64,000 bases of DNA from Bacillota bacterium. Its GTDB lineage: Bacteria > Bacillota > Clostridia > Clostridiales > Clostridiaceae. This document shows, one piece after another, positions 37,988-58,780 of the stretch. The stretch is from positions 1-64,000 of the forward strand of contig JAJXWH010000002.1 of NCBI GenBank assembly GCA_021781745.1, in the 5' to 3' direction. Numbering within the stretch: the first letter of the stretch is position 1; the number at the start of each line of letters is the position of its first letter. Below the pieces are notes generated by a model. It ran no database searches. It was not told the origin of the DNA and saw only the letters and a program-made list of their open reading frames with translations. Position numbers and translations under genes: made by a program.

Positions 37988-37998
37988 GAGGAATCAAT

Positions 37999-38870: not shown

Positions 38871-38950
38871 GCACTAAAGTTTATCATTTTAATTTAGTGC
38901 TTATTTCCAAAAGAAACTCCCAATAAACGTAAGAGGTTTATTGGGAGTTT
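38871..38950 (+). terminator. Two successive terminators after the small-protein group
   Basis: GCACTAAA/TTTAGTGC (38871-38878 with 38893-38900) is followed by a perfect 15-bp stem (38914-38928 with 38936-38950) and a long T tract (38948-38954 and beyond). The second is among the strongest terminators in the window. Confidence 0.85.
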
Positions 38951-39150
38951 TTTTATTTTTAATTACTTTAATAATTCATAATCAACAAATCCATATTTCA
39001 AACCTTTTTTCCTTCATTTTTCTAACATCTAATTAAACAGAAATACTAATTAATATTAACAATAAATAAATTTATCTATATATTTATTGACATATTTATC
39101 TACAATCCATATAATAAAGTAAAGGAAATACTAAAAATGGAGTGATAATC

Positions 39151-39800: not shown

Positions 39801-39846
39801 ATACTTATACTTGCTCCAAATTAAATTTGGAGCAAGTATAAGTATT
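39800..39846. terminator. Long perfect hairpin between convergent genes
   Basis: A 22-bp perfect stem (39800-39821 with 39825-39846) with a 3-nt loop sits between the toxin stop and the convergent 39958 gene. T tracts on both sides are poor, so it may end transcription from either side or block read-through. Confidence 0.65.
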
Positions 39847-39957
39847 GCAACTTGACATTTAGAACTTTCCAGTGAAATTTTCATAGTCTGACGAAACAAT
39901 AATGTTTCTAATTTCGGTTGATTGCACATAAGTCTAGTTGACATGTTGTATACCTTA

Positions 39958-42888: not shown

Positions 42889-42920
42889 ATTATAAAATAA
42901 TTATAATTCAGTAGTATTAT
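42889..42920 (+). promoter_or_regulatory. Putative LanR operator and promoter of lanI
   Basis: ATTATAA (42889-42895), 4 bp, ATTATAA (42900-42906), 8 bp, TATTAT (-10, 42915-42920). The two half-sites are 11 bp apart. The same arrangement occurs upstream of lanA, lanF and lanP. The start codon is about 30 bp after the -10. Confidence 0.6.
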
Positions 42921-42949
42921 TTATAAAAAAGAAATAAGGATGGTTTTAA

Positions 42950-43408
42950 ATGAAAAGAAAAAATTTTATATTATGCGTAACCCCAGTATTTTTAGTGACC
43001 TTCTCTATATTATTTAGCGGTTGTTCTAGAGTAAATCAACTAATTATTAATGGTAAGAAAAATTTAGAAATCAGTAAGAATTTACCTAACTATACCCTAA
43101 ATGAAACAAATCTTAAAGAAATTACGTTTGATAATAAAACTTATATTATTCAAGAATCTTCTGTTTCACAAAATGAATTAGATAAGCCAATTGGAAAAGT
43201 ATCTAAACAAGTTACCATAGATGAAAATAATAAAGTATTAAACAAAGATGAATTAAGGAAAATATATATTCTTCCTAATGATAAAATTGAAGAAAAGCGG
43301 ATTTATTTGAGCTTTGGCTGGATTTATAGTGTGAAAAATACTTACCAAAATGAAACAATTGCTGTCAATGTAAACAACCAATATAAATTAGCCAAGCTTA
43401 AAAAATAA
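42950..43408 (+). CDS. lanI: NisI/SpaI-like lantibiotic immunity lipoprotein (LanI)
   Basis: This 152-residue lipoprotein has a lipid-attachment box (LFSGC, Cys at about 25) after a hydrophobic signal. The mature part (ITFDNKTYIIQESSVSQNEL, then FGWIYSVKN and IAVNVNNQYKLAKL) resembles, from memory, the C-terminal domain of the nisin immunity protein NisI. That domain has a YxI...VSxEEL start and a GxIxSIxxxxxxEAFAVEINDDFKLA end. Its length is close to the single-domain SpaI. It would sit on the outer membrane face and bind the lantibiotic before it reaches lipid II. It lies 2.3 kb from lanK, with an alpha-amylase gene between, but shares the putative LanR box with lanA, lanF and lanP. Confidence 0.72.
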   Translation: MKRKNFILCVTPVFLVTFSILFSGCSRVNQLIINGKKNLEISKNLPNYTLNETNLKEITFDNKTYIIQESSVSQNELDKPIGKVSKQVTIDENNKVLNKDELRKIYILPNDKIEEKRIYLSFGWIYSVKNTYQNETIAVNVNNQYKLAKLKK

Positions 43409-43583
43409 CCCTAATTTTACAAAATATCCCCAAAACATTAGAAATATTTTATATTTGTCCTATACAATAACATTGTAATCATTCAATAAAAAAACCTTAA
43501 GGTTATTTTATAAATCAAATAATTCATTAAAGAAAGGATGGTGAAATGCTATTATTTAAATATATATGCTTATCACGCATTTG

Positions 43584-43597
43584 TGCAATCGCTTGCG
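43584..43597 (+). promoter_or_regulatory. Weak cre-like site before the amylase gene
   Basis: TGCAATCGCTTGCG resembles a CcpA catabolite-response element, with a CG centre and partial dyad, but has three mismatches to the usual consensus. Its place just upstream of an amylase start fits carbon repression. Confidence 0.25.
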
Positions 43598-43638
43598 AAA
43601 AAGTGAGCAAAAATTTATTTATTAGGAGTGATATCAAA

Positions 43639-45630
43639 ATGAGAAAAAAATTATTATCCAGGTTAATTGCTTCAGGTTTATTCTTAAGCCTAAACTTTCT
43701 CCCCGCACCTTTTATAGATTTTAGTACGGGAAAAATTTCAACAGCAGCGTATGCTGCAACCAGTGCTGCTCTGCCATCCAATACTAAAGATGGAACTATT
43801 CTTCATGCCTTTGACTGGTCTTTTACAACTATAAAGAATGAGCTTCCAAACATAGCAGCAGCAGGATATAAATCAGTTCAGGTATCTCCTGTACAGGGAA
43901 CAAAAAGTACAAGCAAAGATCCAAGTCAATGGTGGTTATTATATCAACCAACAAATCAGTCAGTTGGTAATGCTCAACTTGGAACCTATGATGACTTCAA
44001 GGCACTTTGTAGTGAAGCTGATAAGTATGGTATTTCAATTGTTGTAGATGTAGTAATGAACCATATGGCTAATAACGGAAATCCAGATCAATTAGATTCC
44101 AGTGTAGATCATAGCTTTCAAGATTCCAGCCTATATCATAACCAAGGACAATGCAGTAATTGGACCAATAGATATGATATAACACAAAAAGGCATAGGTA
44201 TGCCGGACTTAAACACTCAAAGTTCTGCTGTTCAAAATAAAGCAATTACTTTTTTAAATCAATGTGTAGATGCAGGAGCTGATGGCTTCCGTTTTGACGC
44301 TGCTAAGCATATTGAAACTAATATTGGAATCGATTCTAATCAATCTTGGGCAGGAAATTACTGGACCAACGTTTTAGGTAATCTGCACAATAAATCAAAT
44401 TTATTTATATATGGTGAAATCTTACAAGATGGATCAGTAGATAATATTGGAGCTTATGAATCATTTATGAATGTTACCGCAAGCAATTTTGGCGGCTCGG
44501 TTAGAAATGCAGTAACTTCAACAAATCTAAGTTCACTTGGCACTACTTTAGGAGGAGTTGATTCAACTAAAGCAGTTGACTTTGTGGAGACTCATGATAC
44601 TTATGAAGATGGAACAAGTAAGTCTTTAACAGATACTCAAAGAAAACTTGGCTGGGCTATAGTTGCTGCTCGTGCAAATACTACACCATTATTCTTTGAC
44701 AGACCTACTGGCAGCATAGGATCTGAAGGTGATGGTCTTTGGAAAGATCCTGATATAGCAGCAATTAACAAATTCCATAATGCAATGATAGGACAAGGTG
44801 AATACTTAAGATGGACGAACAATAATACAACAATGCTGATAGATAGAGGAGCTAAAGGTACTGTAATAGTAAATGATGGAGGAAGCACATATGTTAACTC
44901 TCCTACAAATTTAGTAAATGGTACTTATACTAATAAAGGTAGTGCAAATTGTACTTTAACTGTTTCGAATGGAACTATAACTGGAAACATTCCTGCTAAT
45001 TCAGTAGTTGTTCTTTATGATGGATCAACACCTCCACCACCTGTTGATTATGCACCTCATTCAGGTTATAAAGTTGACTATGATAGCAGTACTCTAGTTC
45101 AAGGTAACAGTTTCACAATATACTATAACGGTTCTTTAGCAAATTCAAGTTCAGTGAAATTACATTGGGGATATAATGGATTTACAAATCCAACAGATGT
45201 TACAATGACTAAACGTTCAGATGGATTCTGGTCAGCAACTATTACAATCCCTTCATCAGCTACAAAACTAGATTTTGATTTTACTAATGGCTCTAGTTGG
45301 GATAATAACTCCAGCAAAGATTGGCACTTACAAGTATGGTCATCATCAGTTCCAGTTCAAGTTAACCCTGCTCCAACAGCAGGTAAAGCAACTACTGTAT
45401 ACTATAATGGAAGCTTAGCAGCTGGTTCCTCTTCAATAACTTTACATTGGGGATATAACGGATTCACAAATCCAGCAGATGTTACTATGACTAAACAATC
45501 TGATGGAAGATGGGCAGCAACAATAAACCTTCCATCAGGAAGCTCTGATTTAAATATGGCATTCAAGAGTAATTCAGGAGCTTGGGATAGCAACAACTCA
45601 GCTAACTATAACTATTCTGTAGCACAATAA
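43639..45630 (+). CDS. Secreted GH13 alpha-amylase with two starch-binding modules
   Basis: The ATG at 43639 (TTAGGAGTGATATCAAA before it) starts a signal peptide; the longer upstream frame has none. The 663-residue protein has a GH13 barrel with VVDVVMNH (136-142), GFRFDAAKH with the nucleophile Asp at 220, the acid Glu at 260 (IYGE) and HD at 319-320. Two tandem CBM25-like modules follow (about 465-560 and 570-663), each with HWGYNGFTNP and TMTKxSDGxW. It would hydrolyse starch outside the cell. The two modules are near-copies, evidence of duplication. It separates lanI from the rest of the lantibiotic locus and has no obvious part in lantibiotic production. Confidence 0.93.
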   Translation: MRKKLLSRLIASGLFLSLNFLPAPFIDFSTGKISTAAYAATSAALPSNTKDGTILHAFDWSFTTIKNELPNIAAAGYKSVQVSPVQGTKSTSKDPSQWWLLYQPTNQSVGNAQLGTYDDFKALCSEADKYGISIVVDVVMNHMANNGNPDQLDSSVDHSFQDSSLYHNQGQCSNWTNRYDITQKGIGMPDLNTQSSAVQNKAITFLNQCVDAGADGFRFDAAKHIETNIGIDSNQSWAGNYWTNVLGNLHNKSNLFIYGEILQDGSVDNIGAYESFMNVTASNFGGSVRNAVTSTNLSSLGTTLGGVDSTKAVDFVETHDTYEDGTSKSLTDTQRKLGWAIVAARANTTPLFFDRPTGSIGSEGDGLWKDPDIAAINKFHNAMIGQGEYLRWTNNNTTMLIDRGAKGTVIVNDGGSTYVNSPTNLVNGTYTNKGSANCTLTVSNGTITGNIPANSVVVLYDGSTPPPPVDYAPHSGYKVDYDSSTLVQGNSFTIYYNGSLANSSSVKLHWGYNGFTNPTDVTMTKRSDGFWSATITIPSSATKLDFDFTNGSSWDNNSSKDWHLQVWSSSVPVQVNPAPTAGKATTVYYNGSLAAGSSSITLHWGYNGFTNPADVTMTKQSDGRWAATINLPSGSSDLNMAFKSNSGAWDSNNSANYNYSVAQ

Positions 45631-45666
45631 TTTTCATATAAACTTAATTTACTCCTCTAAAATTAT

Positions 45667-45719
45667 GAATCACACATTAAGGTAATTATATAATCAACTT
45701 AATGTGTGATTCTTTTTTT
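45667..45719. terminator. Terminator between the convergent amylase and lanK genes
   Basis: Perfect 15-bp stem GAATCACACATTAAG/CTTAATGTGTGATTC (45667-45681 with 45698-45712) followed by seven T residues on the plus strand. Confidence 0.85.
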
Positions 45720-45731
45720 AATATTATTCAA

Positions 45732-47138
45732 TTAATCCATCAATTCTACTATAAAAAATTCGATTGTAGCGCCATTATATTCGTTATTATATGCTGAAAT
45801 TTCTCCTTGATAGTTTTGAACAATTTTTTTAGCTATATATAAGCCTAAACCAAAATGGTTTTTGTATGACTCACTTTGATAAAATGCAGAGAATAATTTG
45901 TGTGTATCTTTTTCTTTAAAGCCTGTTCCGGTATCTATGCACTTAAAATAAATTTTGCCTTCAGTATTTTCATCAGATACAATCAGCTTTATCCTGCCAC
46001 TGTTTGTGAATCTAAGGCTATTGTGAAGTATGTTATCTAATACACGATTTAGCATTGATTCATCCAACATATAGTATTTTTTACTTAAGTTAACATAAAA
46101 TTGAAATTCTATATTTTTCTTATTTGCTAAGGATAATAACTCCCTCTTTTTTTCTATGAGTAATTTATTTAAGTCAACTTTTTGTATCCTAAATAAAAAA
46201 TTCAAATTATCTACTTTATATATTAGAGATAGGTTATCTGTAAGCTTGACCATTTTATCACAATTTCTTTTAATTGTTTCTATGTAATCATCCATAGAAA
46301 AATTCTCTTCATCTCTTAATTCGCTTATGAGTTCGAGCTCTCCATTTATTACTGTTATTGGAGTTCTTATATCATGTGCTATTGATGATGTAATCATCTT
46401 TCTTTCATTTTCTAATTTGGATAAGCCTTCAATTGTTTCTTTCAATGCGTTTATCATCTTATTGAATGAATCTTGTATAGTCTTAAATTCCATTCCTTGA
46501 AGTCCCTTAATTTCAAATAAGTAATTCCCTTCTGATATTTCTCCTGCTGCATTAAGCAATATTTGAATATTCTTTGATATAGATTTATATAACTTTTTAG
46601 TAAATAGAAATAAATACATGATAAAAAAAATAATAGGAGATGCAATTAAAGTAATATATATAGCTACAATATCTGGCCTTTCATGAATATTATTTGTTAT
46701 GTATCCAAAGGGAGCTCTTAAGACATAAATATATCTTATGCAATTGTCTTGTACTAATGGTATGCACCTATATACATAATTATCTCTAACTGTATTTATT
46801 TCCATAGATTTTAATACATCTATATTTTTATTTACAATATCAGCATCACCAAATAAATGATTCCCATTAATATCTACAACTTCCCCTTTGATTTTATCTG
46901 AATATGAATTCAAATCTATCAAACGCCCTTGAAGTACCGAATCTATATTTCTTATAATTTCATCTTCTATTTCATTTAAATATTTCTCATAATAATCTGC
47001 TGTTTTCATATAATTAGTAGATATAAATAAAAATATAACCAAAAGTGCATATGCAACTATCGTTGATATAAAAGTATACGAAAATATTTTTATAACCAAT
47101 AAATAAAAATCACTTTTAATGGTTTTGTTACTTAGCAT
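45732..47138 (-). CDS. lanK: Lantibiotic sensor histidine kinase (LanK)
   Basis: This 468-residue membrane kinase has one hydrophobic segment at about 11-40, an extracellular domain (about 41-156), a second segment (157-180), a HAMP-like linker, the H box SSIAHDIRTPIT (phosphorylated His255) and an ATP-binding domain. The latter carries DNILHNSLRFTNSG (N box), IDTGTGF and FGLGLYIAKKIV. The chosen start (MLSNKTIKS) follows GGGAGG by about 6 nt and overlaps the end of lanR by 11 bp, so it is coupled to lanR. By analogy with NisK/SpaK it senses the mature lantibiotic. Confidence 0.88.
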   Translation of the reverse strand: MLSNKTIKSDFYLLVIKIFSYTFISTIVAYALLVIFLFISTNYMKTADYYEKYLNEIEDEIIRNIDSVLQGRLIDLNSYSDKIKGEVVDINGNHLFGDADIVNKNIDVLKSMEINTVRDNYVYRCIPLVQDNCIRYIYVLRAPFGYITNNIHERPDIVAIYITLIASPIIFFIMYLFLFTKKLYKSISKNIQILLNAAGEISEGNYLFEIKGLQGMEFKTIQDSFNKMINALKETIEGLSKLENERKMITSSIAHDIRTPITVINGELELISELRDEENFSMDDYIETIKRNCDKMVKLTDNLSLIYKVDNLNFLFRIQKVDLNKLLIEKKRELLSLANKKNIEFQFYVNLSKKYYMLDESMLNRVLDNILHNSLRFTNSGRIKLIVSDENTEGKIYFKCIDTGTGFKEKDTHKLFSAFYQSESYKNHFGLGLYIAKKIVQNYQGEISAYNNEYNGATIEFFIVELMD

Positions 47139-47826
47139 CCGTAACCTCCCATTTATAACCAAAGCCGTAAACTGTCGTTATATATGAAGTATTAGGATCT
47201 GCTTCTTTAATTTTTCTTCTTATATTCTTTATACTTTCTGTAACAGTTTCTAAATAGCTCTCTGAATCAATTCCCCATACTTTATTAAATATCTGCTCTT
47301 TAGAAAACATTATATTTTTGTTTAACATAAAGAACTCAATTATCTCATATTCTTTCTTTCTGAGCTTTAGTTTCGTTCCAGAGCAAAAGACTTCCTTAGT
47401 TAAAATGTCAATAATCATATTTTTAGAGCTCAAAATATAATTTTTGTTTTGTGAAATTCTTTCCTCTCGTCTTAAATGACATTCAATTCTTGCCATTAAT
47501 TCCTTTAATCCAAATGGTTTTGTAATATAGTCGTCACCGCCAACTGCAAGAGCACTAACCTTATCTTCCTCTAAGTTTTTTGCACTTAAAAATATTATAG
47601 GACAATTAATTTTATCCCGAATTATACTGCAAATCTCTATACCATCTACGTTATTCATCATTATATCAAGTATGATTAAGTCAAATTTATTCTCAAGGAT
47701 AATTTTTAAAGCTTCAACACCATCTTCATATGTTTCAACATAATAATTATGTACCTCGAGATACCTTTTTATCATACTGCAAATATCATCATTATCATCT
47801 ACTACTAATATTCTTTTTTGTTCCAT
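47128..47826 (-). CDS. lanR: Lantibiotic response regulator (LanR)
   Basis: This 232-residue OmpR-family regulator has a receiver domain (acidic DDNDD at 10-14, phospho-acceptor Asp54 in IILDIMM, Lys in YITKPFG) and a C-terminal winged helix ending in ITTVYGFGYKWEV. Proteins of this family bind direct repeats about 11 bp apart, which matches the ATTATAA pairs found upstream of lanI, lanA, lanF and lanP. It is 48 bp downstream of lanC, so it may be read from the lanB-T-C transcript or from a promoter inside lanC. It and LanK form the two-component pair of the locus. Confidence 0.9.
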   Translation of the reverse strand: MEQKRILVVDDNDDICSMIKRYLEVHNYYVETYEDGVEALKIILENKFDLIILDIMMNNVDGIEICSIIRDKINCPIIFLSAKNLEEDKVSALAVGGDDYITKPFGLKELMARIECHLRREERISQNKNYILSSKNMIIDILTKEVFCSGTKLKLRKKEYEIIEFFMLNKNIMFSKEQIFNKVWGIDSESYLETVTESIKNIRRKIKEADPNTSYITTVYGFGYKWEVTDAK

Positions 47827-47874
47827 AATACTTCACCTTATTTTTTTATTTAATCATTCCAAGTCTTACGAAAT

Positions 47875-49191
47875 TTAAACTTCTTGTAAAGAAAATGCAC
47901 AGTCCCATGGAGTCTTCTTTCCATTTTCAATTGCCAGCAATGTTAATATAATTCCTGCTACTCCATCAATAATGCCAATATAATCAAGGTAGTCCACGCC
48001 CACTTCACTCTTCTCCATATTATAAAATCCAAAGGCTGCCTTTTCATCATATAACTCTAATATTTTATCTGTTAAATCTATGGCCGCTTCTCTAAAATCT
48101 TGAAGCCTAGTCACCTCATAGAACCTATTAGCTATATAAGCAATCCCGGAAAAACCATGGCAAAATGTTGGAGAATAGATATCTGTAAGTCTATTTATTG
48201 CACCCTTCATTGCATTAACTGCTTCATCTATATATTCCATGTTATTTAAATATTCTCCTGCTATAAGTACAGAATAGGCTGCGCCAGGAGCTCCATAACA
48301 CCAGGCATCTCTGCTATTTATACTATTAACCTTACCTTCTCTATATTCCTCTAGAGATATGTGTGTCCCCCAGTAACTTTCCTTATCGTTACTTATATGA
48401 AACTTTATAAGAAAGTCTACTAATTTATTGATACTATCATCTTGATCTTCTAAATGAATACCACATTTTGCAGAATTACATAAAACAAGGAGCATGCCAG
48501 GTACCCCATGAGATAGGCCTATATTAAAGCAGCCTTCTGGCCAAAGCTTTTGATCCACCTTTGAAAATTGATTTTCAGCCGAAATATACCATCCTGGAAG
48601 CACTAATCCATTAACACTTTTATCTTTACATAATTCAATTATATATCCGACAATCAATCTTAGAGCTTGTTTCATTTCTTCATTGTTAGGAAATAACATA
48701 CAGTAATTAGCTATTCCACATACCCCTTCAATGACATCATAATCAGACATGTTGAGAGATTCCTTATTTCTTAATATTTCTATAAACCCCGGTATATTTT
48801 CCTCGATAAAAGAATTCATGCTGGAAATAAAATTTCCATATCTGCTCCTATTATTTGATAGACATACGGCAGAAAGCCCTATTCCCGAAACACCGCTAAA
48901 CATGGAAAGTGATGTAATCCCCTTTTCTTCTATATACTCTCCCATTCTCTTCATGTATTCATGTCCTATTACATCCCATCCTTGTTCTGGGTACTGCTCA
49001 TTCAATTCCCCATACAATACACAAAGTGCAGGTATTCCGTGACTTAAACTTAATTCATTAAAAGGATTTATCCTATTTCCCTCAAAGTTTATATAATTCT
49101 TCTCATTATTAACTATTTCTTTTACTTTTTCATAATCCGATAGCTTTTCTGCTATATTCCAAACAGTATCTCTTATACTTCTATTTCTCAT
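47875..49191 (-). CDS. lanC: Lanthionine synthetase C-family cyclase (LanC)
   Basis: This 438-residue protein is a LanC cyclase, which joins Cys thiols to dehydrated Ser/Thr to form lanthionine rings. The zinc ligands are present: Cys298 (WCYGAPG), Cys344 and His345 (FCHGFSG). His228 (LSHGVPG) matches the catalytic His of NisC. The repeated G-x-x-G half-barrel segments are visible (MFSGVSGIGLS, GVCGIANY, DGVAGI). It follows lanT by 30 bp with a GGGGGAG site. It should act in the cytoplasm with LanB and LanT on the LanA precursor. Confidence 0.95.
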   Translation of the reverse strand: MRNRSIRDTVWNIAEKLSDYEKVKEIVNNEKNYINFEGNRINPFNELSLSHGIPALCVLYGELNEQYPEQGWDVIGHEYMKRMGEYIEEKGITSLSMFSGVSGIGLSAVCLSNNRSRYGNFISSMNSFIEENIPGFIEILRNKESLNMSDYDVIEGVCGIANYCMLFPNNEEMKQALRLIVGYIIELCKDKSVNGLVLPGWYISAENQFSKVDQKLWPEGCFNIGLSHGVPGMLLVLCNSAKCGIHLEDQDDSINKLVDFLIKFHISNDKESYWGTHISLEEYREGKVNSINSRDAWCYGAPGAAYSVLIAGEYLNNMEYIDEAVNAMKGAINRLTDIYSPTFCHGFSGIAYIANRFYEVTRLQDFREAAIDLTDKILELYDEKAAFGFYNMEKSEVGVDYLDYIGIIDGVAGIILTLLAIENGKKTPWDCAFSLQEV

Positions 49192-49221
49192 TTTTCTCCC
49201 CCATAAATATAAATTGATTCG

Positions 49222-51054
49222 TTATATAACTGAATCCAGCTTTATTTTATTTTGTAAATCTTCTTTATGCTGTAAGCTCTCCATTTCATACATACGTCTA
49301 TATACTTCATTGTTTAGTAATAATTCTTTATGTGTTCCAATTCCAATTATCTCTCCTGCATTCATTACAATTATTTTGTCAGCCAACATAGCTGTAGATA
49401 GTCTATGGGAAATAAAGATTCCAATCTTGTCCTTAGTCATCTTTATAAACATATCAATAACCTCTTTTTCAGCTATAGGATCTAATGCGGAGCTTGGCTC
49501 ATCAAGTATATATAAGGAAGCATCTCTAAAGAAAGTTCTAGCTATAGCAATTTTCTGCCATTGCCCACCTGAAAGCTGTACTCCATTTTGAAACCATAAT
49601 CCAAGCTGTTCATCCATATTATTAATAAATTTAGCACTAGCTTTATCTAGAGCTGTCCTCATATTATGATCATCATTAATATTATCAATATTTCCAAAGC
49701 CTACATTTTCTCTTACTGTTAGTTCGTATTTAGTGAAATCCTGAAATAAAATTGCAATACAGCTTCTGAGCGCAGCTTCGTCATAATCATTTATTGAATG
49801 CCCATTATATAAAATACTATCATCCTCTAAATCATATAATTTTGATATAAGTTTTACTAATGTACTTTTCCCTGATCCATTAGGTCCAACTATGGCAATT
49901 CTCTCTCCTTTTGCAATTTCAAGATTTATATTACTTAACACTGTATTATAGGAATTAGGATATTTGAAGGTCAGATTTTTTATTTTTAAGCTTTTAATAT
50001 TACTAATTTTCATTAATTTCTTATTTTCATCAATAAAGTTTTCTTCATTAATATCTAAGAATTCAAACAACTGACTAATATATAAATTATTTTCATATAA
50101 CGTATATATAGTATTAAGTACACTTTTACAATTACTTTGTATTAAATTAAGTGCATTTATAAATCCAACAACATTTCCAATTAAAATTTCTCCAATGATT
50201 GCTGAATATACAATAATAAGAAGTATTACAGCAGTACATACTTGTTGCACAAACTCAAAGATAAATGTGAAAATTGATCTTCTTTTAAATAGCTTAATAT
50301 CTTGTTTAACAAATACTTTATTAATACTTTTAAACTTATTTAAAATGTATTCTCCTATGCCATAGGATTTTATTTCTTTAAAAGTATTATCTCTAGTTAG
50401 TAAATACGATAGATACCATGACTTTCTTCTATCCGTAGCCCTTTCCCAACTAACGTTAAATTCTCTTTGACCTATTTTAAAGAAATATAACGAAAAAGTT
50501 AGCGGAATCAATACTAAAATAAGCAGTACCCAAGGTTTCCAATTTATTATTATAGTAACTGATGATACTAATGTGACAATTGATGTAATTAAGCTTAATA
50601 TTGATAAAAATACTTGGTATGGTTTATACGAAGTTTCATTTTGCACCCGCTGCAATCTATCGTAAATTTCAGAGTCCTCGAAATGTTTTAGTGATAATTT
50701 CGTACATTTTTTCATCACTTTATAGTTAAGCTTATAATTAATTAAAGTTTGAAATTTATTTTGATAAAACTCCACAATAGATCCTACAATTTCACTGAAC
50801 AAATTTGCAGCAATATAAAATCCAAATGCATATATAACTTTTTCGAAATCTTTTGTTGTAATCATGTTTAGAAGATGCTGAGACCCGAATAAAGTTATTA
50901 TAGGGCATAAACCTATGATTAAGCTAAATATGAGAATAGTATAAAAGCTTCTTTTATCTATTTCTTTTATCAAACTAATTGTCTTAGGTATTAATTTCAG
51001 TGCTTTTACTATATCTTTTAAAGAGACGTGATCATCATAATTTTCTACATTCAA
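49222..51054 (-). CDS. lanT: Lantibiotic ABC exporter (LanT)
   Basis: This 610-residue half-transporter has an N-terminal membrane domain (five to six helices, about 35-310) and a C-terminal ATPase: Walker A GPNGSGKS, signature QLSGGQWQKIAIAR, Walker B LYILDEPSSALDP, H-loop ISHR. It lacks the N-terminal C39 peptidase domain found in class II LanT, so it exports the modified precursor with its leader still on. This fits a separate LanP protease. It lies 28 bp downstream of lanB. Confidence 0.93.
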   Translation of the reverse strand: MNVENYDDHVSLKDIVKALKLIPKTISLIKEIDKRSFYTILIFSLIIGLCPIITLFGSQHLLNMITTKDFEKVIYAFGFYIAANLFSEIVGSIVEFYQNKFQTLINYKLNYKVMKKCTKLSLKHFEDSEIYDRLQRVQNETSYKPYQVFLSILSLITSIVTLVSSVTIIINWKPWVLLILVLIPLTFSLYFFKIGQREFNVSWERATDRRKSWYLSYLLTRDNTFKEIKSYGIGEYILNKFKSINKVFVKQDIKLFKRRSIFTFIFEFVQQVCTAVILLIIVYSAIIGEILIGNVVGFINALNLIQSNCKSVLNTIYTLYENNLYISQLFEFLDINEENFIDENKKLMKISNIKSLKIKNLTFKYPNSYNTVLSNINLEIAKGERIAIVGPNGSGKSTLVKLISKLYDLEDDSILYNGHSINDYDEAALRSCIAILFQDFTKYELTVRENVGFGNIDNINDDHNMRTALDKASAKFINNMDEQLGLWFQNGVQLSGGQWQKIAIARTFFRDASLYILDEPSSALDPIAEKEVIDMFIKMTKDKIGIFISHRLSTAMLADKIIVMNAGEIIGIGTHKELLLNNEVYRRMYEMESLQHKEDLQNKIKLDSVI

Positions 51055-51082
51055 ATTTTACCCCCCTTAATTTAAGATATTA

Positions 51083-54000
51083 CTATGATTTAAAATGCTT
51101 TAATGCGTATAAAGCATGAGATGCTAAAGCCCTAACCTTTTTTTCGAACTCTCTGTCAATGCCAAACATTCTATTACAGTTTAAATGAATTATACTATCT
51201 AAAATTGATAAATCTGTTGATACTTCTTCATTTTCTCTTACTTTATTTCCATAGTATTCAACTATTTTTCTTCGCTTGTTTAATATTTCTATTAATATAT
51301 TTCCTTCTTCACTTTCCCTTAAGCCTTCCCAATCCTTATTACAGTTGCATAATTTCATATATTCAGTACGTTTTTGCTTAAAGTCTTCTCTATACTCAGA
51401 AGAATTAACTTGTGAGCGTAAAAACTCTACTTGTTTATCATATGGCAAGCCAAAGCTCTCCATATAGTGTATTACAGAAATCATTCCTATTATTTCATCG
51501 CTAAAATTAAGGCTTCCTTCTCTTTTTGCTCTTAATATATCTTCTGTTACAATGCTATCAAAGAAGAAGACTTTTTCGGCAATATTAATTAATTCTATAC
51601 CTCCATAACGTTCAATTTCTCTATCATAGGAATCTATTGAGAAGTATGTCATCAAGCCTTTTTTTCTAACCATAGATAGCCATTCCCTTATCTTTGGATA
51701 TATCATTAATAGTTTTTCTTGGCTTGAATTAAGTCTTAATCTTATATGCTGCTCTGGATCAACATATCTCATAAAAAAGTACTTACTTATAATTTCTTCC
51801 TCTACTAGCTCATTACAAAACTCCGAGATATAATAGGCTATTAAATCATCAACATTTGAGCTTATTCCATATAATTTAATATAAAGCCATTCATCAAAAG
51901 GATCTTTTACACGCTCTTTTGATAAACTGCTTATATCACTGCTTAACATCCTAGCTGAAACTTTATCGCTTATAGTTTCCTGCTTAATTTTTATCAGTGG
52001 AATTACTAGTTCACATATATAATCCTTATAGCTTTCCTTTACAATATTTACTCCTTCATTTTCATAGGAATTTAAGATTATCTCATTAAAGCTATTCTTA
52101 CATTCGTGGTATAATATTTTAACGCATTGCTCATCATCGAGATTTAAAAGTATTCTATTATCTGCAAAAGTTATATATACATATTGTGGGACACCATATT
52201 TTATGCAATAATCATTAAACTGATTTTTAAATTCATTAAATTCTGTCTTCTTATTAATTTTCATGTTAATTTTATTCATTTTCCAAGTCTCAGGCATTAT
52301 TACGAAATTCTTATATTTAATTTCTGGTATATATGAAAAATCTTTGTACACATCACTCCAAGCAAACTTATACCAGAGTTTCTTCTCATCTAAGCTTATA
52401 TCATTTAAAAACCTTATAGGATTAGGTGCAGTTTGAGGATTGAGCATATTATTTATTGTAAGTAATAGTTTTTTATTTAGGGCTTTGCTTTTAGCATAAA
52501 ATGTATTGTTTTCTAATCCAATATAAATGTCATTAAGCTTTATTCTATATAAATTATCTTTGCTGCCGTTTGTAAATAGTGACATTTCATACTCACTGCT
52601 ATGAATATTTCTAGTAACATTTGCATTCCTAACTTCACTAGGTAAATATGAGATTTCGCAAGTAACGTATTCCTCACTATCAATTATCTCAATATTTCTT
52701 TCATCTAATTCTTCAAAGAATTTATTAGGTTCGCTCATCATATGCGAAAACCTTCCAAAACTTTTCCCTGCACTAGTCGAACCTAAATTAGGACCAATAT
52801 AGTATTGAAACTCATCACTTGAGTTATCTTCAGATTTATTTTTTACAAGCAAATTAATTTCTAATGAATCTGGAATATTCTCGTAATCAATCTTTTGCAA
52901 TTCTAAATTCTTTATTTCATCGTCTCTTATAACTATATTTCTGCTATTGGTCTTAAGAGCCTGAAAATACTTTTCCATAAAGTAATCTCGTACATTATTA
53001 TCTAATAATTCATTTACAGAAACATCTAAAGATCTATTATTTCTAGGTCTTTCATAATTCATTGGCGGACCTATACCTATATCATTATCTAACATTTCTA
53101 ATAATGATATTTCTCTATCTTGTCCATACTTTTCAATGAATTCTTGCTTATATTTTGATAAAAATGGTTCTGGATTTTCTATGGACATTGATAGGTCTAA
53201 TAATATATTCATAAGATCATTTACATCTGATATTATTTTCTTATTAATTTTCTTATCTCTTAAATTTAACTTCATATCAACTTGCAAAATATTTTTCACA
53301 TTTGCAATACTTTCCATTTTCTTATATAGCTCTAAATATGTTTTTTCTTCGGCACCTACTGGAGTTTCATTATATATCTTAAGCTTTTCCTTAATTTCTG
53401 TTAATTCATCTACTAACGGTATTTCAATTTCAGCTTTCTTAACTTCATTAATAAGATAATCAAATTGATCTAATACTGTTAATGGAGGTCTTAAATTTGA
53501 TATTAAAAATTCTCGTTCTATTAATTGTTTTAAAAAGTTATCGATCTTACTTTCGTCTTCAATAGAATACTCATCTATTAATATATACTTTAACTTGTTA
53601 TATTCAATTCCATCTTTAGCTAAATCATATGTTCTCATAAATGGTTTAGTAGCTCTAATACTAATTTCACCAATTCTATTATTATCTTCTTTATCTGTAG
53701 AGTGTATTAATAATGCTCTTTCCCCTTTAATAAAGATGCTGTCATTTATCTTAAAATCTAAATTTTTATAATGATTATCTTCTAACTCTTTTACAATCTT
53801 AATAATCCATTCCAAATCAGGCCTAGCGAATTTCTTGAAATTATCATTCTCATAACTTATAGCTGTTTCTTCTGCGTATTCTCCAAAATCCACTCCTGAA
53901 AAAAGCCCAAAAGGTGTAGGTCTCATACTCATCCTAATCAGGTATTTATATATTGATTGAAGGAAATAATCAAATTTTTTGATTTCTTTTCCATCACAAA

Positions 54001-54199
54001 AATCTATTATTGTGCTATATAAACTCTTGCTGGATACTAATATAGCTTCTCTAAAAACTGAATTATTGCAGATTTCCAGCAATCTATCTTTAATTTTGTC
54101 TGATTCCCCGTCTTTTCTGAAAAACTCATAGTAATTATCTGTTGAAAATATGGGTGTCCTAATCATAAAAGTATTTGTATTTCTATATAAATCTCTCAT
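51083..54199 (-). CDS. lanB: Class I lantibiotic dehydratase (LanB)
   Basis: This 1038-residue protein is a full-length, tRNA-dependent LanB. The large N-terminal glutamylation domain carries RMSMRPTPFGLFSGVDFG and IGPNLGSTSAGKSFGRFSHM. The C-terminal elimination domain carries EWLYIKLYG, KYFFMRYVDPEQHIRLRL and SIDSYDREIERYGG. It activates Ser/Thr of the LanA core with glutamate and removes it to leave Dha/Dhb. It is unsplit and of the same size as NisB/SpaB. A hairpin separates it from lanA. It probably heads the lanB-T-C-R-K transcript by read-through from lanA. Confidence 0.95.
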   Translation of the reverse strand: MRDLYRNTNTFMIRTPIFSTDNYYEFFRKDGESDKIKDRLLEICNNSVFREAILVSSKSLYSTIIDFCDGKEIKKFDYFLQSIYKYLIRMSMRPTPFGLFSGVDFGEYAEETAISYENDNFKKFARPDLEWIIKIVKELEDNHYKNLDFKINDSIFIKGERALLIHSTDKEDNNRIGEISIRATKPFMRTYDLAKDGIEYNKLKYILIDEYSIEDESKIDNFLKQLIEREFLISNLRPPLTVLDQFDYLINEVKKAEIEIPLVDELTEIKEKLKIYNETPVGAEEKTYLELYKKMESIANVKNILQVDMKLNLRDKKINKKIISDVNDLMNILLDLSMSIENPEPFLSKYKQEFIEKYGQDREISLLEMLDNDIGIGPPMNYERPRNNRSLDVSVNELLDNNVRDYFMEKYFQALKTNSRNIVIRDDEIKNLELQKIDYENIPDSLEINLLVKNKSEDNSSDEFQYYIGPNLGSTSAGKSFGRFSHMMSEPNKFFEELDERNIEIIDSEEYVTCEISYLPSEVRNANVTRNIHSSEYEMSLFTNGSKDNLYRIKLNDIYIGLENNTFYAKSKALNKKLLLTINNMLNPQTAPNPIRFLNDISLDEKKLWYKFAWSDVYKDFSYIPEIKYKNFVIMPETWKMNKINMKINKKTEFNEFKNQFNDYCIKYGVPQYVYITFADNRILLNLDDEQCVKILYHECKNSFNEIILNSYENEGVNIVKESYKDYICELVIPLIKIKQETISDKVSARMLSSDISSLSKERVKDPFDEWLYIKLYGISSNVDDLIAYYISEFCNELVEEEIISKYFFMRYVDPEQHIRLRLNSSQEKLLMIYPKIREWLSMVRKKGLMTYFSIDSYDREIERYGGIELINIAEKVFFFDSIVTEDILRAKREGSLNFSDEIIGMISVIHYMESFGLPYDKQVEFLRSQVNSSEYREDFKQKRTEYMKLCNCNKDWEGLRESEEGNILIEILNKRRKIVEYYGNKVRENEEVSTDLSILDSIIHLNCNRMFGIDREFEKKVRALASHALYALKHFKS

Positions 54200-54374
54200 C
54201 TAAATTATCCCCTTATTTTAAATATGTTTAATATTATATCCATGATATAAAAGTATTATCTATAATAATACATTATTTAACATATATCTCATATTTTATC
54301 ACAACTTTATAACTAATTGTATATTATATTAAATTTTAATAAAAGTCTCCTAAAAGATGGCTTGTACAATAAAA

Positions 54375-54406
54375 GGCAGTAAAAAATATATTAATTCTTT
54401 ACTGCC
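54375..54406 (-). terminator. Hairpin between lanA and lanB (partial terminator)
   Basis: GGCAGTAAA/TTTACTGCC (54398-54406 with 54375-54383), followed on the minus strand by TTTTATT. It lies right after lanA. Such leaky terminators let the precursor be made in excess over the enzymes. Confidence 0.75.
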
Positions 54407-54426
54407 CTCTTTGTGTTAAAAATGAA

Positions 54427-54597
54427 TTAACACTTTATACAAGACTTACATGATACACAAGAGTTTTGTGTAATACACATTAACACGCCTGTGATACAAC
54501 CAGGAGTACATAGAGACTTACTAGTTATAGCTGGTCCTACTTTTGTTGTGTCTGCCTTTACTTTTACGTCTAAATCAAAATCATCTAATTTTCCCAT
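54427..54597 (-). CDS. lanA: Nisin/geobacillin-type lantibiotic precursor (LanA)
   Basis: This 56-residue precursor has a leader with the FDLD box (residues 7-10; the FNLD-type LanB/LanC recognition motif) and a likely cleavage after GPA (residue 23), with Pro at -2. The 33-residue core starts ITSKSLCTPGC, the nisin A/B ring region, then ITGVLMC. It ends in a tail with Thr20/Cys24, Ser23/Cys27, Ser26/Cys30 and Ser29/Cys33, each an i to i+4 pair. Seven Cys and nine Ser/Thr allow seven rings. From memory this is the pattern of geobacillin I, with a few conservative changes. The ATG at 54597 is chosen because GGGAGAAG precedes it; an ATG 15 bases upstream would put five odd residues before the leader. 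Confidence 0.95.
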   Translation of the reverse strand: MGKLDDFDLDVKVKADTTKVGPAITSKSLCTPGCITGVLMCITQNSCVSCKSCIKC

Positions 54598-54746
54598 ATT
54601 CTTCTCCCTCATCTCTCTCTTTTTATTTTTAATAATTTATTTTAATATTAAACTCATTAAATCAGCATATTTCAAATTTCCGGAACATAAGATATATACT
54701 ATATTCAACTTGTCTAATAATAAAATCTAATTTACTTTACATATTT

Positions 54747-54778
54747 ATATTAATACCAAATTATAATATTTTTATAAT
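54747..54778 (-). promoter_or_regulatory. Putative LanR operator and promoter of lanA
   Basis: On the minus strand: ATTATAA (54772-54778), 4 bp, ATTATAA (54761-54767), 8 bp, TAATAT (-10, 54747-54752). It has the same half-sites and spacing as at lanI, lanF and lanP. Confidence 0.6.
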
Positions 54779-54865
54779 GTTTTTACCAAAAGTAAATTTT
54801 ATCACCAAACTCTTTAAAGTTTTTATCTTTTTACCCATATAATGTAATTTGTTATAAAAATAAGA

Positions 54866-54899
54866 TGCATCAAAACGACTCTTAAATCATTTTGATGCA
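54866..54899 (-). terminator. Terminator of the lanF-E-G transcript
   Basis: TGCATCAAAA/TTTTGATGCA, a perfect 10-bp stem (54890-54899 with 54866-54875), followed on the minus strand by TCTTATTTTT. Confidence 0.8.
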
Positions 54900-54920
54900 A
54901 CTAATTTTAAAGATTATCAA

Positions 54921-55697
54921 TTAATCATAACTTTTCTTTCCTTCCCATTTTTCAAACCAGATCATTCCCAAAATTGTTATTAAAATAAAAAATATGCTGA
55001 TGCTTAACATCCCCTTCTGAAGTTGAACATTAAAATATTCAACGGAATTAGTGTTTACTGGAATATAAGCTCCATTTATAAAGGTCCCTGGAAGTAATCC
55101 CCATCTGGCTGGATATGTCCATGGAATAAACATCCATATGCTATCTCCAACTGGAGTTGCTCCCAAAATAGCAGCAATCAAAACTCCCATTGCTCCAATT
55201 CCGATAGATGCCCCCATACCAAACATAAAACTTATTAATAAATCTAAAGAACAAATAGCTATAGATGCAAGGCTCATAAATAAAGCTCCTTGCATAAATA
55301 CTTTAGAATCTATGCTTTCCATATGAATTATAAATTTTAATCCCCAAATCATTATAATTGTTGAAACTATAATATCTATAATTATAATTAAGATTAATAT
55401 AATTAATTTGCTAATATATATTTTAATTCTTGATGCAGGTATGCTTAATAACCCATTAAAGTTTCCTGCATTTTCTTCTTGTTCACATATAAGTGCTGAT
55501 ATTAAAGCTATTCCAATAGGAAGAATAATAGCCATTGCATTGAAAAATGTATCATAATTTTGAATCTGAAATTTATTATGCTTATTATACATTATCATGC
55601 ATATTGAGTAAACTATTGGTGTTATATATGCAATTAACCTTATAGGCGTACGCTTTGTCTTCATCCAATCTGCACATAGCATTTTAATCAATCTCAT
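54921..55697 (-). CDS. lanG: Lantibiotic immunity ABC permease (LanG)
   Basis: This 258-residue permease has six hydrophobic segments and belongs to the ABC-2 type used in LanFEG immunity transporters. It contains ALICEQEENAGNFNGLLSIP (the conserved cytoplasmic EexxG loop) and GVLIAAILGATPVGDSIW. It starts 2 bp after the lanE stop (GAGAGGTGC as ribosome site). With LanE it forms the channel that LanF drives to expel the lantibiotic from the membrane of the producer. Confidence 0.88.
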   Translation of the reverse strand: MRLIKMLCADWMKTKRTPIRLIAYITPIVYSICMIMYNKHNKFQIQNYDTFFNAMAIILPIGIALISALICEQEENAGNFNGLLSIPASRIKIYISKLIILILIIIIDIIVSTIIMIWGLKFIIHMESIDSKVFMQGALFMSLASIAICSLDLLISFMFGMGASIGIGAMGVLIAAILGATPVGDSIWMFIPWTYPARWGLLPGTFINGAYIPVNTNSVEYFNVQLQKGMLSISIFFILITILGMIWFEKWEGKKSYD

Positions 55698-55699
55698 TA

Positions 55700-56446
55700 C
55701 TAATGCACCTCTCGCTTATTAAACCAAATTGATGTAATAAATGATACTGCTGCAAAAAATACTAAAGAAATAACTATACCTTTTACTATTGGATCCGGTG
55801 ATAATAGTGGACTTCCCTCTGGTAATATTGTTCCATTTGGATGTACACCAATAATAGGACACATGAGTCTCAATCCAAAACTCCAAGGAATTAATATCCA
55901 AAAAGATTCGGTAGATGCTATGACCCCTGCTATAATTCCAACTATACTAGTTATAATTGAAATAGCAGTTCCAAATAGCGATGATATAAATAAATGTATA
56001 GGAATTAATACTAAAGATGCAATCCAGCAAACAATAGCTGCTTCAAATATATTTGTAATAGAAATACTCCTATCTCTGACTAATATATTTGATAATATTA
56101 CTACTGTGAATAGCTCTATTGTTGAAATAAAAGTATATGAAGCTATGACACTTATCTTGCTAAACCAAACTGCAGTTTTGCTAATGTTATATAAATATGA
56201 ACTTTTATAATTACCTGACTTTTTTTCTCTCATATGAGCTAAGGAACATAACAAAGCTGTCCCAAGAGGCATAAAAATTAATGGCCACCAATTAAAAACC
56301 ATGCTTATATAATATTTTGATCCATCGGCAATAAAAAACATTATGCAAATTGCGTACATTGCAAAAAATAAGGGTGCTAAAACCATAAGTTTTCTTGAAA
56401 AGGTTCTTTTGCATTTTAAATTCTCAGCTTGAATTATATTAATCAT
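55700..56446 (-). CDS. lanE: Lantibiotic immunity ABC permease (LanE)
   Basis: This 248-residue protein has six hydrophobic segments and the loop SLAHMREKKSGNYKSSYLYN, the counterpart of the loop in LanG. It begins INIIQAENLKCKRTFSRKL, typical of LanE/BcrB-type permeases. It is 3 bp downstream of lanF with an AGGAGG site inside the lanF end, so it is coupled. It is the partner of LanG and LanF in producer self-protection. Confidence 0.88.
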   Translation of the reverse strand: MINIIQAENLKCKRTFSRKLMVLAPLFFAMYAICIMFFIADGSKYYISMVFNWWPLIFMPLGTALLCSLAHMREKKSGNYKSSYLYNISKTAVWFSKISVIASYTFISTIELFTVVILSNILVRDRSISITNIFEAAIVCWIASLVLIPIHLFISSLFGTAISIITSIVGIIAGVIASTESFWILIPWSFGLRLMCPIIGVHPNGTILPEGSPLLSPDPIVKGIVISLVFFAAVSFITSIWFNKREVH

Positions 56447-56449
56447 TTT

Positions 56450-57160
56450 TTAGACTTCCTCCTTTGAATTACATTCTTTCACAACTTCCATAAATAGCTT
56501 CTCTAAGTCCTGATCTTTTTCAATTTTATCTTGATATCCTAACTTTCCGTCACTAATAATTCCAATATAGTCAGCGACTTGTTCCACTTCAGATAATATA
56601 TGGCTTGATAAAATTACTGTTATCCCCCTCCTAGGAAAGCTCTTTATTAAATTACGTAATTCCTGAATTCCTATAGGATCTAATCCATTTGTAGGTTCGT
56701 CTAAGATTAATAATTTAGGATGATTCAAAAGTGCAATTGCAATTCCAAGCCTTTGTTTCATCCCAAGAGAAAATTGAGATGCCTTTTTTTTGTTGGTATT
56801 TTTTAAATCTACAATTTCTAAAACCTCGTCTATACGAGATTTAGGCAAGTTTAATAATTTAATATAAACTTCAAGATTTTCTTTAGCCGTAAGATTTCCA
56901 TATAAAGCTGGAGTTTCAATAAGTGCTCCTATATCCTCAAGCTTTTTTCTACTCCACTTTTCTCCATTAAAGATTATTTGGCCTGATGTTGGATGTAAAA
57001 GACCTGTTATTAACTTTAGGGTAGTCGATTTACCTGCTCCATTCGGTCCAAGCAGCCCATAGATAACATTTTGTTTTACTTTTAATGAAATGTTATTTAC
57101 TGCTATTTGTTTTCCAAAACGCTTAGTTAATTTATCTGTTTCTATAATATATTTTTCCAT
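56450..57160 (-). CDS. lanF: Lantibiotic immunity ABC ATPase (LanF)
   Basis: This 236-residue ATPase has Walker A GPNGAGKST, signature FSLGMKQRLG and Walker B LLILDEPTNGLDP. The Q-loop position reads ALIETPALYGN with Glu instead of Gln, the E-loop described for lantibiotic immunity ATPases. It drives LanEG. GCAAGGAGC precedes the ATG. A putative LanR box lies just upstream (57193-57224), so lanFEG probably has its own inducible promoter. Confidence 0.93.
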   Translation of the reverse strand: MEKYIIETDKLTKRFGKQIAVNNISLKVKQNVIYGLLGPNGAGKSTTLKLITGLLHPTSGQIIFNGEKWSRKKLEDIGALIETPALYGNLTAKENLEVYIKLLNLPKSRIDEVLEIVDLKNTNKKKASQFSLGMKQRLGIAIALLNHPKLLILDEPTNGLDPIGIQELRNLIKSFPRRGITVILSSHILSEVEQVADYIGIISDGKLGYQDKIEKDQDLEKLFMEVVKECNSKEEV

Positions 57161-57192
57161 AAAATAAGCTCCTTGCTTCGTAATTTCAGTTT

Positions 57193-57224
57193 ATTTTAGC
57201 AAGGAACTATAATATATTTATAAT
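57193..57224 (-). promoter_or_regulatory. Putative LanR operator and promoter of lanFEG
   Basis: On the minus strand: ATTATAA (57218-57224), 4 bp, ATTATAG (57207-57213), 8 bp, TAAAAT (-10, 57193-57198). The lanF ATG is about 33 bp further on. Confidence 0.6.
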
Positions 57225-57232
57225 GTAGTAAA

Positions 57233-58699
57233 TTATTTTTTAGTATTTAAAGCATTATAGGCATTAACCAATCCTGAACCATAATATTCTTTTGATTTAT
57301 TACCATCTAATTTTTCAGATGTTTTATAAATTAATTTAGCTACTTCTTTTGGCTTTAGATGACTATCTTTACATAAAATAAGCCCTGCTACCGCTGAAAC
57401 TTTTGGAGCTGCTATTGATGTTCCTTCCACAAACCAATAGTCACCAACTGATGTGCTTAAGCACATATCAAAAATAGAACCAGTTTCAGATGAATCCCCT
57501 CCTGGTGCTGTTATATCTATAAAATTCTTACCATAATTCGAGTACTTTGCAATCTCATCAGTCTTTCCTGTAGCTGAAACATTTATAACACCATCTATAC
57601 TACCTGGAACTTCATAAGTTAACCCTTCATATTTAAAGCCTTTGCTCCCATTTTGATCATTAAGATATTGGGTTAATTTTTTTGTATTTCCACAATCAAT
57701 ACCATCATTTCCTGCTGCTGTGACTATCGTAACATTATGTTTTATTGCATATTTAATTGCTCGTTTATACAATTCATACTCTGCCATATCATCACCTAAT
57801 TTATATTTGACACCAGTCTTTGGATCAGTCCAATAACACTTTCCTTTTAAATCGTATCCTGACATACTCAAATTAATTACTTTTGCTCCATCATCGGTGG
57901 CTTTAATTATTGCTGATGATGCTATGGTTGCATTTGTATTTCCTTCAGAATCAAAAATTCTATAACTCCTAAATCCAATATTAGGTGCTACTCCTTTGGT
58001 TCTCCCATTCGCAGCTATAATTCCCGCTACATATGTGCCATGACCTAATCTATCACCTATATCATTAGGATCTCCAGTTTCTGTTTCATCATTATTAAAC
58101 CCCTTAGGGATGAGATTCTCTCCGCCCATAAAATTTTCTTCTAAATCTGGGTGATCAGCTTTTACTCCTGAGTCCACAATAGCTACCACCACATTGTGAT
58201 TTCCAGTACTTAAATCATAACTCTTTCCATTGTTTGTTACTCTTTTTATGTCCCATTGGTACAAGTTATATAAATCACTACTGCCACTTTCAGAACTATC
58301 CTCATTGTCAGCTTTACTTATAGATTTATTTAGACTCTTATTTAAATTTTTATTGTCTTTAAACTTTATTATTTTTTCTTCTGGTGCTTTAATATTGTGA
58401 TTTGGAGCCAATGAATTTACTGTATTATAATTTTGAATTTCTGGTATTAAATCTGCTTTACATTGAACCTCCAGTCCTCCAACTTCTGAAAATGTATTTA
58501 CTACCTTTCCTCCTGATTTGCTTATAAAATCTTTAACCTGAGTATCAACCTTCTCGTCATTAAATAACACCACTAAATCAATGTTATCTTCTGAATCCTT
58601 TGTCACAGCTTGTACACCAATTCCTGCAAGCGTAGTGCTGGCAAATAAAATCGTAATTAAAATAGAATAAAATTTTTTTAAAAATAGCCTCTTTTTCAT
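57233..58699 (-). CDS. lanP: Subtilisin-like leader peptidase (LanP)
   Basis: This 488-residue serine protease has a signal peptide (about 1-31), a prodomain (about 35-140) and a subtilase domain with catalytic Asp176 (VAIVDSG), His220 (GHGTYVAG), Ser428 (GTSIAAP) and oxyanion Asn331. No sorting signal or membrane anchor follows the domain (it ends in VNAYNALNTKK), so it should be secreted freely. It would remove the leader from exported precursor. The likely -1 residue in LanA is Ala where nisin has Arg, so its pocket should differ from NisP. I chose the ATG at 58699 after GAGGGGAATT; two upstream in-frame ATGs lack a comparable site. Confidence 0.88.
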   Translation of the reverse strand: MKKRLFLKKFYSILITILFASTTLAGIGVQAVTKDSEDNIDLVVLFNDEKVDTQVKDFISKSGGKVVNTFSEVGGLEVQCKADLIPEIQNYNTVNSLAPNHNIKAPEEKIIKFKDNKNLNKSLNKSISKADNEDSSESGSSDLYNLYQWDIKRVTNNGKSYDLSTGNHNVVVAIVDSGVKADHPDLEENFMGGENLIPKGFNNDETETGDPNDIGDRLGHGTYVAGIIAANGRTKGVAPNIGFRSYRIFDSEGNTNATIASSAIIKATDDGAKVINLSMSGYDLKGKCYWTDPKTGVKYKLGDDMAEYELYKRAIKYAIKHNVTIVTAAGNDGIDCGNTKKLTQYLNDQNGSKGFKYEGLTYEVPGSIDGVINVSATGKTDEIAKYSNYGKNFIDITAPGGDSSETGSIFDMCLSTSVGDYWFVEGTSIAAPKVSAVAGLILCKDSHLKPKEVAKLIYKTSEKLDGNKSKEYYGSGLVNAYNALNTKK

Positions 58700-58748
58700 A
58701 ATTCCCCTCTTTTCCTTATTCATTTGACACAATAATCATTATATAACA

Positions 58749-58780
58749 TAAATACCATAATATCCTAATATTTTTATAAT
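58749..58780 (-). promoter_or_regulatory. Putative LanR operator and promoter of lanP
   Basis: On the minus strand: ATTATAA (58774-58780), 4 bp, ATTAGGA (58763-58769, weaker half-site), 8 bp, TATTTA (-10, 58749-58754). The first 15 bp equal the lanA box. An alternative -10 TATAAT lies at 58738-58743. Confidence 0.45.

Follow-up and report, generated by a model that had tools for sequence, protein, structure and literature searches.

Maddinglicin (MadA/MadB/MadC) from Clostridium sp. Maddingley is the closest described counterpart of the lantibiotic locus studied here, which occupies positions 42889 to 58780 of a 64,000-nucleotide stretch (the window), part of contig C59 in a 5.73-Mb genome (G000) for which Clostridium sp. 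LS is the closest match that carries a name. According to the accessible text of PMC9889658, maddinglicin was traced to genome mining of a Clostridium by van Heel et al. in 2016, is 73.2% identical to geobacillin I, and is encoded by a cluster that has all components except LanI. The same text bases the assumption that maddinglicin forms no pores on the absence of LanI and, as a second argument, on a missing hinge region. Crystal (MadC, 8BYK) and cryo-electron microscopy structures (MadB, 9G04 and 9G05) have been reported (PMC9889658, PMC12241602), and the accessible portion of PMC12241602 counts MadA among five lantibiotics that were active when produced by the nisin machinery. Other nisin relatives published from clostridia are cesin of C. 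estertheticum (PMC10581189) and Clos2/4/5 of C. beijerinckii HUN142 (PMC6768957). As far as the available parts of these reports go, they are likewise nisin-like class I peptides, but their C-termini differ and are not geobacillin-like (Clos4 was checked in L023).

The window locus shares with maddinglicin the same 56-residue precursor, a class I gene set with regulation and LanFEG, and LanB and LanC proteins that are ~97% and ~94% identical. The published cluster lacks LanI in its accessible description, whereas here lanI is intact beyond an alpha-amylase gene. Judged from sequence, a Clostridium here carries the class I lantibiotic locus for maddinglicin, of the geobacillin I type. Its lanI is best read as an original component, most likely under LanR control, that relatives have lost. 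We regard it as highly probable that the explanation holds as a whole, with promoter boxes, double self-protection, and an ancestral lanI later lost in relatives.

Geobacillin I of Geobacillus thermodenitrificans DSM 465 (L013) has the same seven Cys and a core identical at 29 of 33 residues, the whole precursors being 73% identical. The lanABTCRK order and a lanI facing lanK are also alike. The leader ends in QPN there but in GPA here, and the placement of lanPFEG upstream of lanA on the same strand is a feature of the window. Nisin A is similar in the region of rings A–C, the FxLx leader motif, a NisI-family lipoprotein, and a subtilase LanP, but it has five Cys and a two-domain LanI, while the window locus has seven Cys and a single-domain LanI. 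We take the gene order of nisin A to differ as well. SpaI of the subtilin system is a single-domain lantibiotic immunity lipoprotein like the LanI found here; however, it is distant (E 1.2e-5) and belongs to a different lantibiotic.

The identity of the peptide and its modification enzymes rests on three genes:

54427..54597, minus strand: lanA precursor, 56/56 identical to 9g05_C (MadA); TIGR03731 1.4e-15
51083..54199, minus strand: lanB dehydratase, MadB ortholog; matches 9g04_A over 1038 residues; Lant_dehydr_N and Lant_dehydr_C
47875..49191, minus strand: lanC cyclase, MadC ortholog; matches 8byk_A over 438 residues, E 1.5e-288; LANC_like

Chain C of PDB entry 9g05, to which LanA is identical, is the precursor MadA in its complex with MadB. 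The alignments of LanC to MadC (8byk) and of LanB to MadB (9g04) extend across the whole chains. LanC is 94.3% and LanB 97.2% identical to its counterpart in a relative (G027) whose LanC equals MadC. Because LanA is MadA and the two enzymes match MadC and MadB, the peptide and the enzymes are already known. A new lantibiotic was therefore rejected as a candidate reading. The sequence-only reading had called a seven-ring nisin relative in an anaerobic spore former notable; that such a peptide is new in a Clostridium falls with the identity of the precursor and the printed structures of MadB and MadC.

LanA consists of a 23-residue leader, with an FDLD motif and a GPA end, and a 33-residue core with 7 Cys and 9 Ser/Thr. 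The leader is compatible with the contacts F-17, L-15, V-13, and V-11 given for MadA in the accessible text of PMC12241602. The predicted neutral monoisotopic mass of the 33-residue peptide ranges from 3297.5 (seven water losses) to 3261.5 (nine). By analogy with MadB, MadC, and geobacillin, LanB would dehydrate LanA and LanC would close about seven thioether rings; LanT would export the peptide, and LanP would free it of its leader.

The gene that adds to the published account is lanI, to which the sequence-only reading gave no special weight:

42950..43408, plus strand: lanI, 152-residue single-domain SpaI/NisI-family immunity lipoprotein; PF18218, NF033433; putative signal peptide ends in FSGC

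LanI scores 96.9 bits against NF033433 (cut-off 35, E 8.8e-28) and 94.8 bits against PF18218 (cut-off 26.4, E 4.6e-27), and it matches the structure chains of SpaI (2lvl, 1.2e-5) and NisI (5xhb, 2.5e-4). It is 46–47% identical to LanI of three geobacillin-type loci (L015 equals L018 in the alignment). The lipobox-like FSGC was seen by eye, and its G-C-S is invariant in all four aligned sequences. The gene lies 2.3 kb from lanK, with the amylase gene between them. The feature "LanI absent" of the published cluster does not apply to this genome. Self-protection would be double, by the LanFEG pump and the LanI lipoprotein. Within the maddinglicin literature searched for LanI, to the extent that it was accessible and with subscription papers mostly outside reach, LanI of this cluster is discussed only in PMC9889658. 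PMC5786555 uses LanI only generally, the available main texts of PMC12241602, PMC10459688, and PMC12328550 are without LanI, and the maddinglicin paper PMC10257480 was not part of this term comparison. Literature searches found no titles on lanI of maddinglicin. Relative to print, three things are new: the presence of lanI, its likely control together with the peptide, and its disappearance from relatives.

The loss was read from two relatives. In G027, LanA is 100% identical, LanC is identical to MadC at 438 of 438 residues, and LanB is identical to MadB across the ~957 displayed residues of the alignment. This genome is collinear with the window at 95–96% on both sides of the lanI gap. It is shorter by 409 bases between the box upstream of lanI and the lanI tail, keeps the lanI ribosome-binding site and last codons, and shows no LanI family match elsewhere. 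The statement in the accessible text of PMC9889658 that LanI is missing thus agrees with G027, but as a loss. In G042, the slot between yitT and a GH94 gene holds open lanR, lanK, lanF, lanE, and lanG genes that are 82–94% identical, while lanP is in two fragments and lanC in two short fragments. No match to lanA or lanB was found in this slot at E up to 0.01, and the sole lanT match there is the lanF gene. Its lanI remnant consists of the first two and last 14 codons, is 407 bases shorter, and directly faces lanK with no amylase gene between. The decayed maddinglicin locus of G042 spans L058:3388-9256 (lanRK and lanFEG open, lanP and lanI broken, lanABTC lost or fragmentary), and a BacA/UppP-family gene (L058:2271-3086) sits between it and yitT.

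Among more distant loci, lanI closes an FEGI operon and faces lanK in Parageobacillus thermantarcticus (L012/L014, one contig); it also faces lanK in G. thermodenitrificans (L013, sequence cut at its end). In L015 and L018, FEGI lies ahead of lanA on the same strand. Position, remnants, and these outgroups together indicate that lanI is ancestral and that the amylase gene is a later neighbour; lanI would once have faced lanK directly. A gain of lanI in this genome alone was rejected by the remnants in G027 and G042. Each remnant retains bases absent from the other; therefore, two deletions are favoured, and the loss in the two relatives is most simply explained in this way. The lost stretch is bordered by an 8-bp repeat, AAATGAAA (at 42948 and 43348), and a repeat prompting the same deletion twice would fit the remnants as well.

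Co-regulation was addressed through predicted LanR boxes, two of which define the outer edges of the locus at 42889 and 58780:

54759..54778, minus strand: predicted LanR box of lanA, 161 bp upstream of the start; best window position
42889..42908, plus strand: predicted LanR box of lanI, ATTATAAAATAATTATAATT, an 11-bp direct repeat; second-best window position with matrices from lanA promoters outside the window
58761..58780, minus strand: predicted LanR box of lanP(FEG); third-best window position
43437..43456, plus strand: weak candidate LanR box upstream of the amylase gene; fourth- to fifth-best window site
57205..57224, minus strand: weak candidate LanR box upstream of lanF; fourth- to sixth-best window site

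The box was first spotted by eye with the window promoters visible, and the matrix was then built without window sites. An unsupervised run was made to answer this circularity, in which a Gibbs sampler was given the 250 bp upstream of lanA from seven loci outside the window. This run omitted L011 and L018 (near-copies of L010 and L015), L014 (same contig as L012), and L016, L017, L021, L022, and L024–L027. It found the motif MTTAKAARWWHMTTAKAWTT in all seven loci, 129–151 bp before the lanA start. On both strands of the window, the five best sites for this motif were, in order, those of lanA, lanI, lanP, amylase, and lanF. A matrix from the six unique sites ranked them lanA, lanI, lanP, lanF, amylase; without the sole clostridial site, the order was lanA, lanP, lanI, amylase, a site at 30774 outside the locus, and lanF. 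A set of 120 synthetic 64-kb sequences with third-order composition gave these mean numbers of sites per 64 kb at or above each score: 0.008 for lanA, 0.042 for lanI, 0.275 for lanP, and 0.775 for both lanF and amylase. Because of these numbers, score by itself supports only the first two or three boxes. Upstream of their lanI remnants, G027 and G042 both keep the lanI box without a change in any of its 20 bases. An operator-like box shared by lanA and lanI is thus found as a prediction. Literature searches on SpaR/NisR direct repeats found no papers. A sigma-70 scan was uninformative (110 sites found, 107 expected).

LanK and LanR would respond to a signal that is most likely the peptide, and LanR would act at the 11-bp direct-repeat boxes before lanA, lanP(FEG), and lanI. 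The case for LanR control of the amylase gene is weak, the site being at chance level per 64 kb. Its ortholog in G027 scores 15.53, and the best sites in seven other amylase upstream stretches score lower (6.0–12.3). Starch degradation may have been recruited to the regulon of the lantibiotic.

Between G000 and G027, the ratio of nonsynonymous to synonymous divergence (dN/dS) is 0.015–0.32 across the ten differing lan and amylase genes, and lanA shows no difference. The G027 amylase copy holds one stop, taken to lie ahead of the probable start. Synonymous divergence (dS) is 0.05–0.08 for lanB, lanG, lanE, and lanF, and 0.11–0.19 for amylase, the other lan genes, and the flanks; the four low values would fit a recombined block around lanA. 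The block 51083-57160 (lanB, A, G, E, F), with dS 0–0.08, looks as if exchanged between lineages. Between G000 and G042, dS is 0.44–0.61 for lanRK and lanFEG (dN/dS 0.04–0.19) but 0.92–0.96 for yitT and the GH94 gene on the flanks; lan genes may have passed from one lineage to the other once the species had separated. The G042 locus looks like an immune non-producer, and a kept immunity function fits the low dN/dS beside decayed lanC and lanP. In the available text of PMC5945643, a gallidermin mutant without gdmA but with immunity outcompetes its parent.

Several observations weigh against lanI as an ancestral, co-regulated part of the system. Among 206 genomes of the family, LanI homologues (E up to 1e-5) occur in eight, and six of these have no LanB hit (three candidates scored per genome, E up to 1e-40). 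The two with both are G000 and G189, and in G189 the LanB hit is on a different contig from LanI. Three of the six genomes without a LanB hit (G214, G213, and G055; L049, L050, and L051) have LanI-family genes directly beside genes for an ABC_tran ATPase and an FtsX permease. These transporters are presumably of the BceAB type, and the pairs are possibly stand-alone lantibiotic-resistance modules. With LanI mostly lacking LanB and having such neighbours, the window LanI could be a general resistance protein. In addition, lanI is missing in two relatives and is thus dispensable there, and the dN/dS set is without lanI, for which the compared genomes offer no intact close ortholog. The exact box pattern (N4 spacing) occurs three times in the genome, as does a reversed control; two of the three occurrences are at lanA and lanI, and only these positions are telling. 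Finally, the near-equal losses and the 8-bp repeat leave room for a single older deletion.

The homologues without LanB, three of them next to transporters, could mean that the lan genes are those of maddinglicin while lanI is an independently acquired resistance lipoprotein against other producers, and the best outside hit (G214, 51%) is of the transporter-adjoining sort. We give this only a small chance, since the position and orientation are those of lanI in two Bacillales geobacillin-type loci, remnants persist in two relatives, and the box is common to lanA. Somewhat better placed, though still unlikely, is one loss of lanI by recombination at AAATGAAA with subsequent trimming and exchange between lineages. 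It would account for the repeat at both ends and for the similar net losses (409 and 407 bases), and exchange is suggested by dS values that vary across the locus; however, each remnant keeps bases that the other lacks, and the amylase gene is common to G027 and G000 but not G042. The decay of G042 at the same place raises the question of whether the locus is intact yet silent or non-functional in this strain. This is improbable given that all frames are open, dN/dS against G027 is below 0.33 for every differing gene, and the precursor is unchanged. The lanI deletion in G027, a draft of ~260 contigs, might also be an assembly error, and the published cluster might possess a lanI that cluster-bounded annotation overlooked 2.3 kb from lanK. 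We consider this very improbable because the junction lies inside a 128-kb contig with collinear flanks (95–96%), G027 has no LanI family match elsewhere, and G042 has a remnant too.

If lanI is an ancestral part of the system, as we prefer, the absence of LanI, in print an argument on the mode of action of maddinglicin, looks like a derived loss. The gene, its likely co-regulation, and its loss weaken this published inference; the hinge-region argument, as given in the accessible text of PMC9889658, is untouched. A wider picture can be offered tentatively, as possible rather than probable. The published system would be a derivative minus half of its self-protection, and the full form would have LanI controlled together with the peptide. 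The no-pore inference would then fall, so that maddinglicin may act on the membrane, and the locus would decay stepwise to an immune non-producer keeping sensor and pump (G042). The three genomes form a natural test set for LanI beside LanFEG, with the same peptide with lanI (the window genome) and without it (G027), and with sensor and pump kept but production genes not intact (G042).

The remaining genes of the locus are as follows:

43636..45630, plus strand: alpha-amylase with CBM53 modules, between lanI and lanK; Pfam; probable start MRKKLLSRL at 43636
45732..47162, minus strand: lanK histidine kinase; HisKA, HATPase_c; likely start ATG 47138
47128..47826, minus strand: lanR OmpR-family response regulator; Response_reg, Trans_reg_C
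49222..51054, minus strand: lanT exporter; ABC_tran, ABC_membrane
54921..55697, minus strand: lanG permease; TIGR03733 8.8e-69
55700..56446, minus strand: lanE permease; TIGR03732 7.8e-75
56450..57160, minus strand: lanF ATPase; Walker A/B, E-loop, homologues
57233..58732, minus strand: lanP subtilase; Peptidase_S8 2.3e-47, triad; probable start ATG 58699 (488 residues)

The minus-strand series runs lanP, lanF, lanE, lanG, lanA, lanB, lanT, lanC, lanR, lanK, and the amylase gene and lanI follow on the plus strand beyond lanK. All eleven lan genes (I, K, R, C, T, B, A, G, E, F, P) are open frames, which bears out the sequence-only reading that every part is present and intact-looking. Its description of the locus as complete, of class I and the nisin/geobacillin I type, with lanI standing apart, also agrees with family profiles and motifs. 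Pfam and NCBIfam matches were counted only above curated cut-offs for ten scanned proteins. LanA matched PF02052, TIGR03731, and NF038155, LanB matched PF04738 and PF14028, LanC matched PF05147, and LanR, LanK, LanT, and the LanP subtilase matched their family profiles. LanF was not among the ten and was assigned from its position, Walker A and B motifs, and homologues. Family profiles found no peptidase domain in LanT. The class I assignment follows from a separate LanB with both domains, a LanC with zinc ligands, and a precursor with an FxLx leader and a Cys/Ser/Thr core.

Key residues named earlier were recovered: the zinc ligands C298, C344, and H345 of LanC (beside H228 and R294) and D54 of LanR. 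The LanP triad D187/H231/S439 of the 499-residue frame becomes D176/H220/S428, as first numbered, from ATG 58699, and LanK H263 of the 476-residue frame becomes H255 from ATG 47138. LanF has 'IETPALY', with E where other ATP-binding cassette (ABC) ATPases have Q, a position for which we take 'E-loop' to be the name.

No sign of carriage on a known plasmid was found: none of the 77 plasmid records matched by LanB reaches 60% identity, and LanI has no match among plasmids. The island sits between yitT and the GH94 gene, which are close neighbours in seven relatives. Among these seven slots, only that of G042 holds lan orthologs. The G052 slot holds a different cluster (L059:5230-11712), which may serve another modified peptide at the same insertion site; it comprises ABC-2/ABC genes, a radical-SAM protein, and an ABC exporter resembling LanT (30% to LanT). 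Across the 206 family genomes, LanA relatives occur in 5 (E up to 0.001) and LanB in 15 (1e-40). G189 has lanR, K, F, E, G, and a LanI relative at L052:9991-15524, without lanABTC in the 20 kb read, and a strong LanR-type box (score 20.66) lies before its lanF.

Elsewhere in the window, 25725-41682 is a run of related minus-strand genes that cross-match in G027. Three tested members have choline-binding repeats (28687-30579, 35826-37544, and 39958-41682); one has Cadherin-like and another Lactamase_B domains. A cell-surface polysaccharide cluster at 7019-25650 contains glycosyltransferases, a GDP-mannose-dehydratase family protein, an ABC-2 transporter, a sugar transferase, and a Wzy_C protein.

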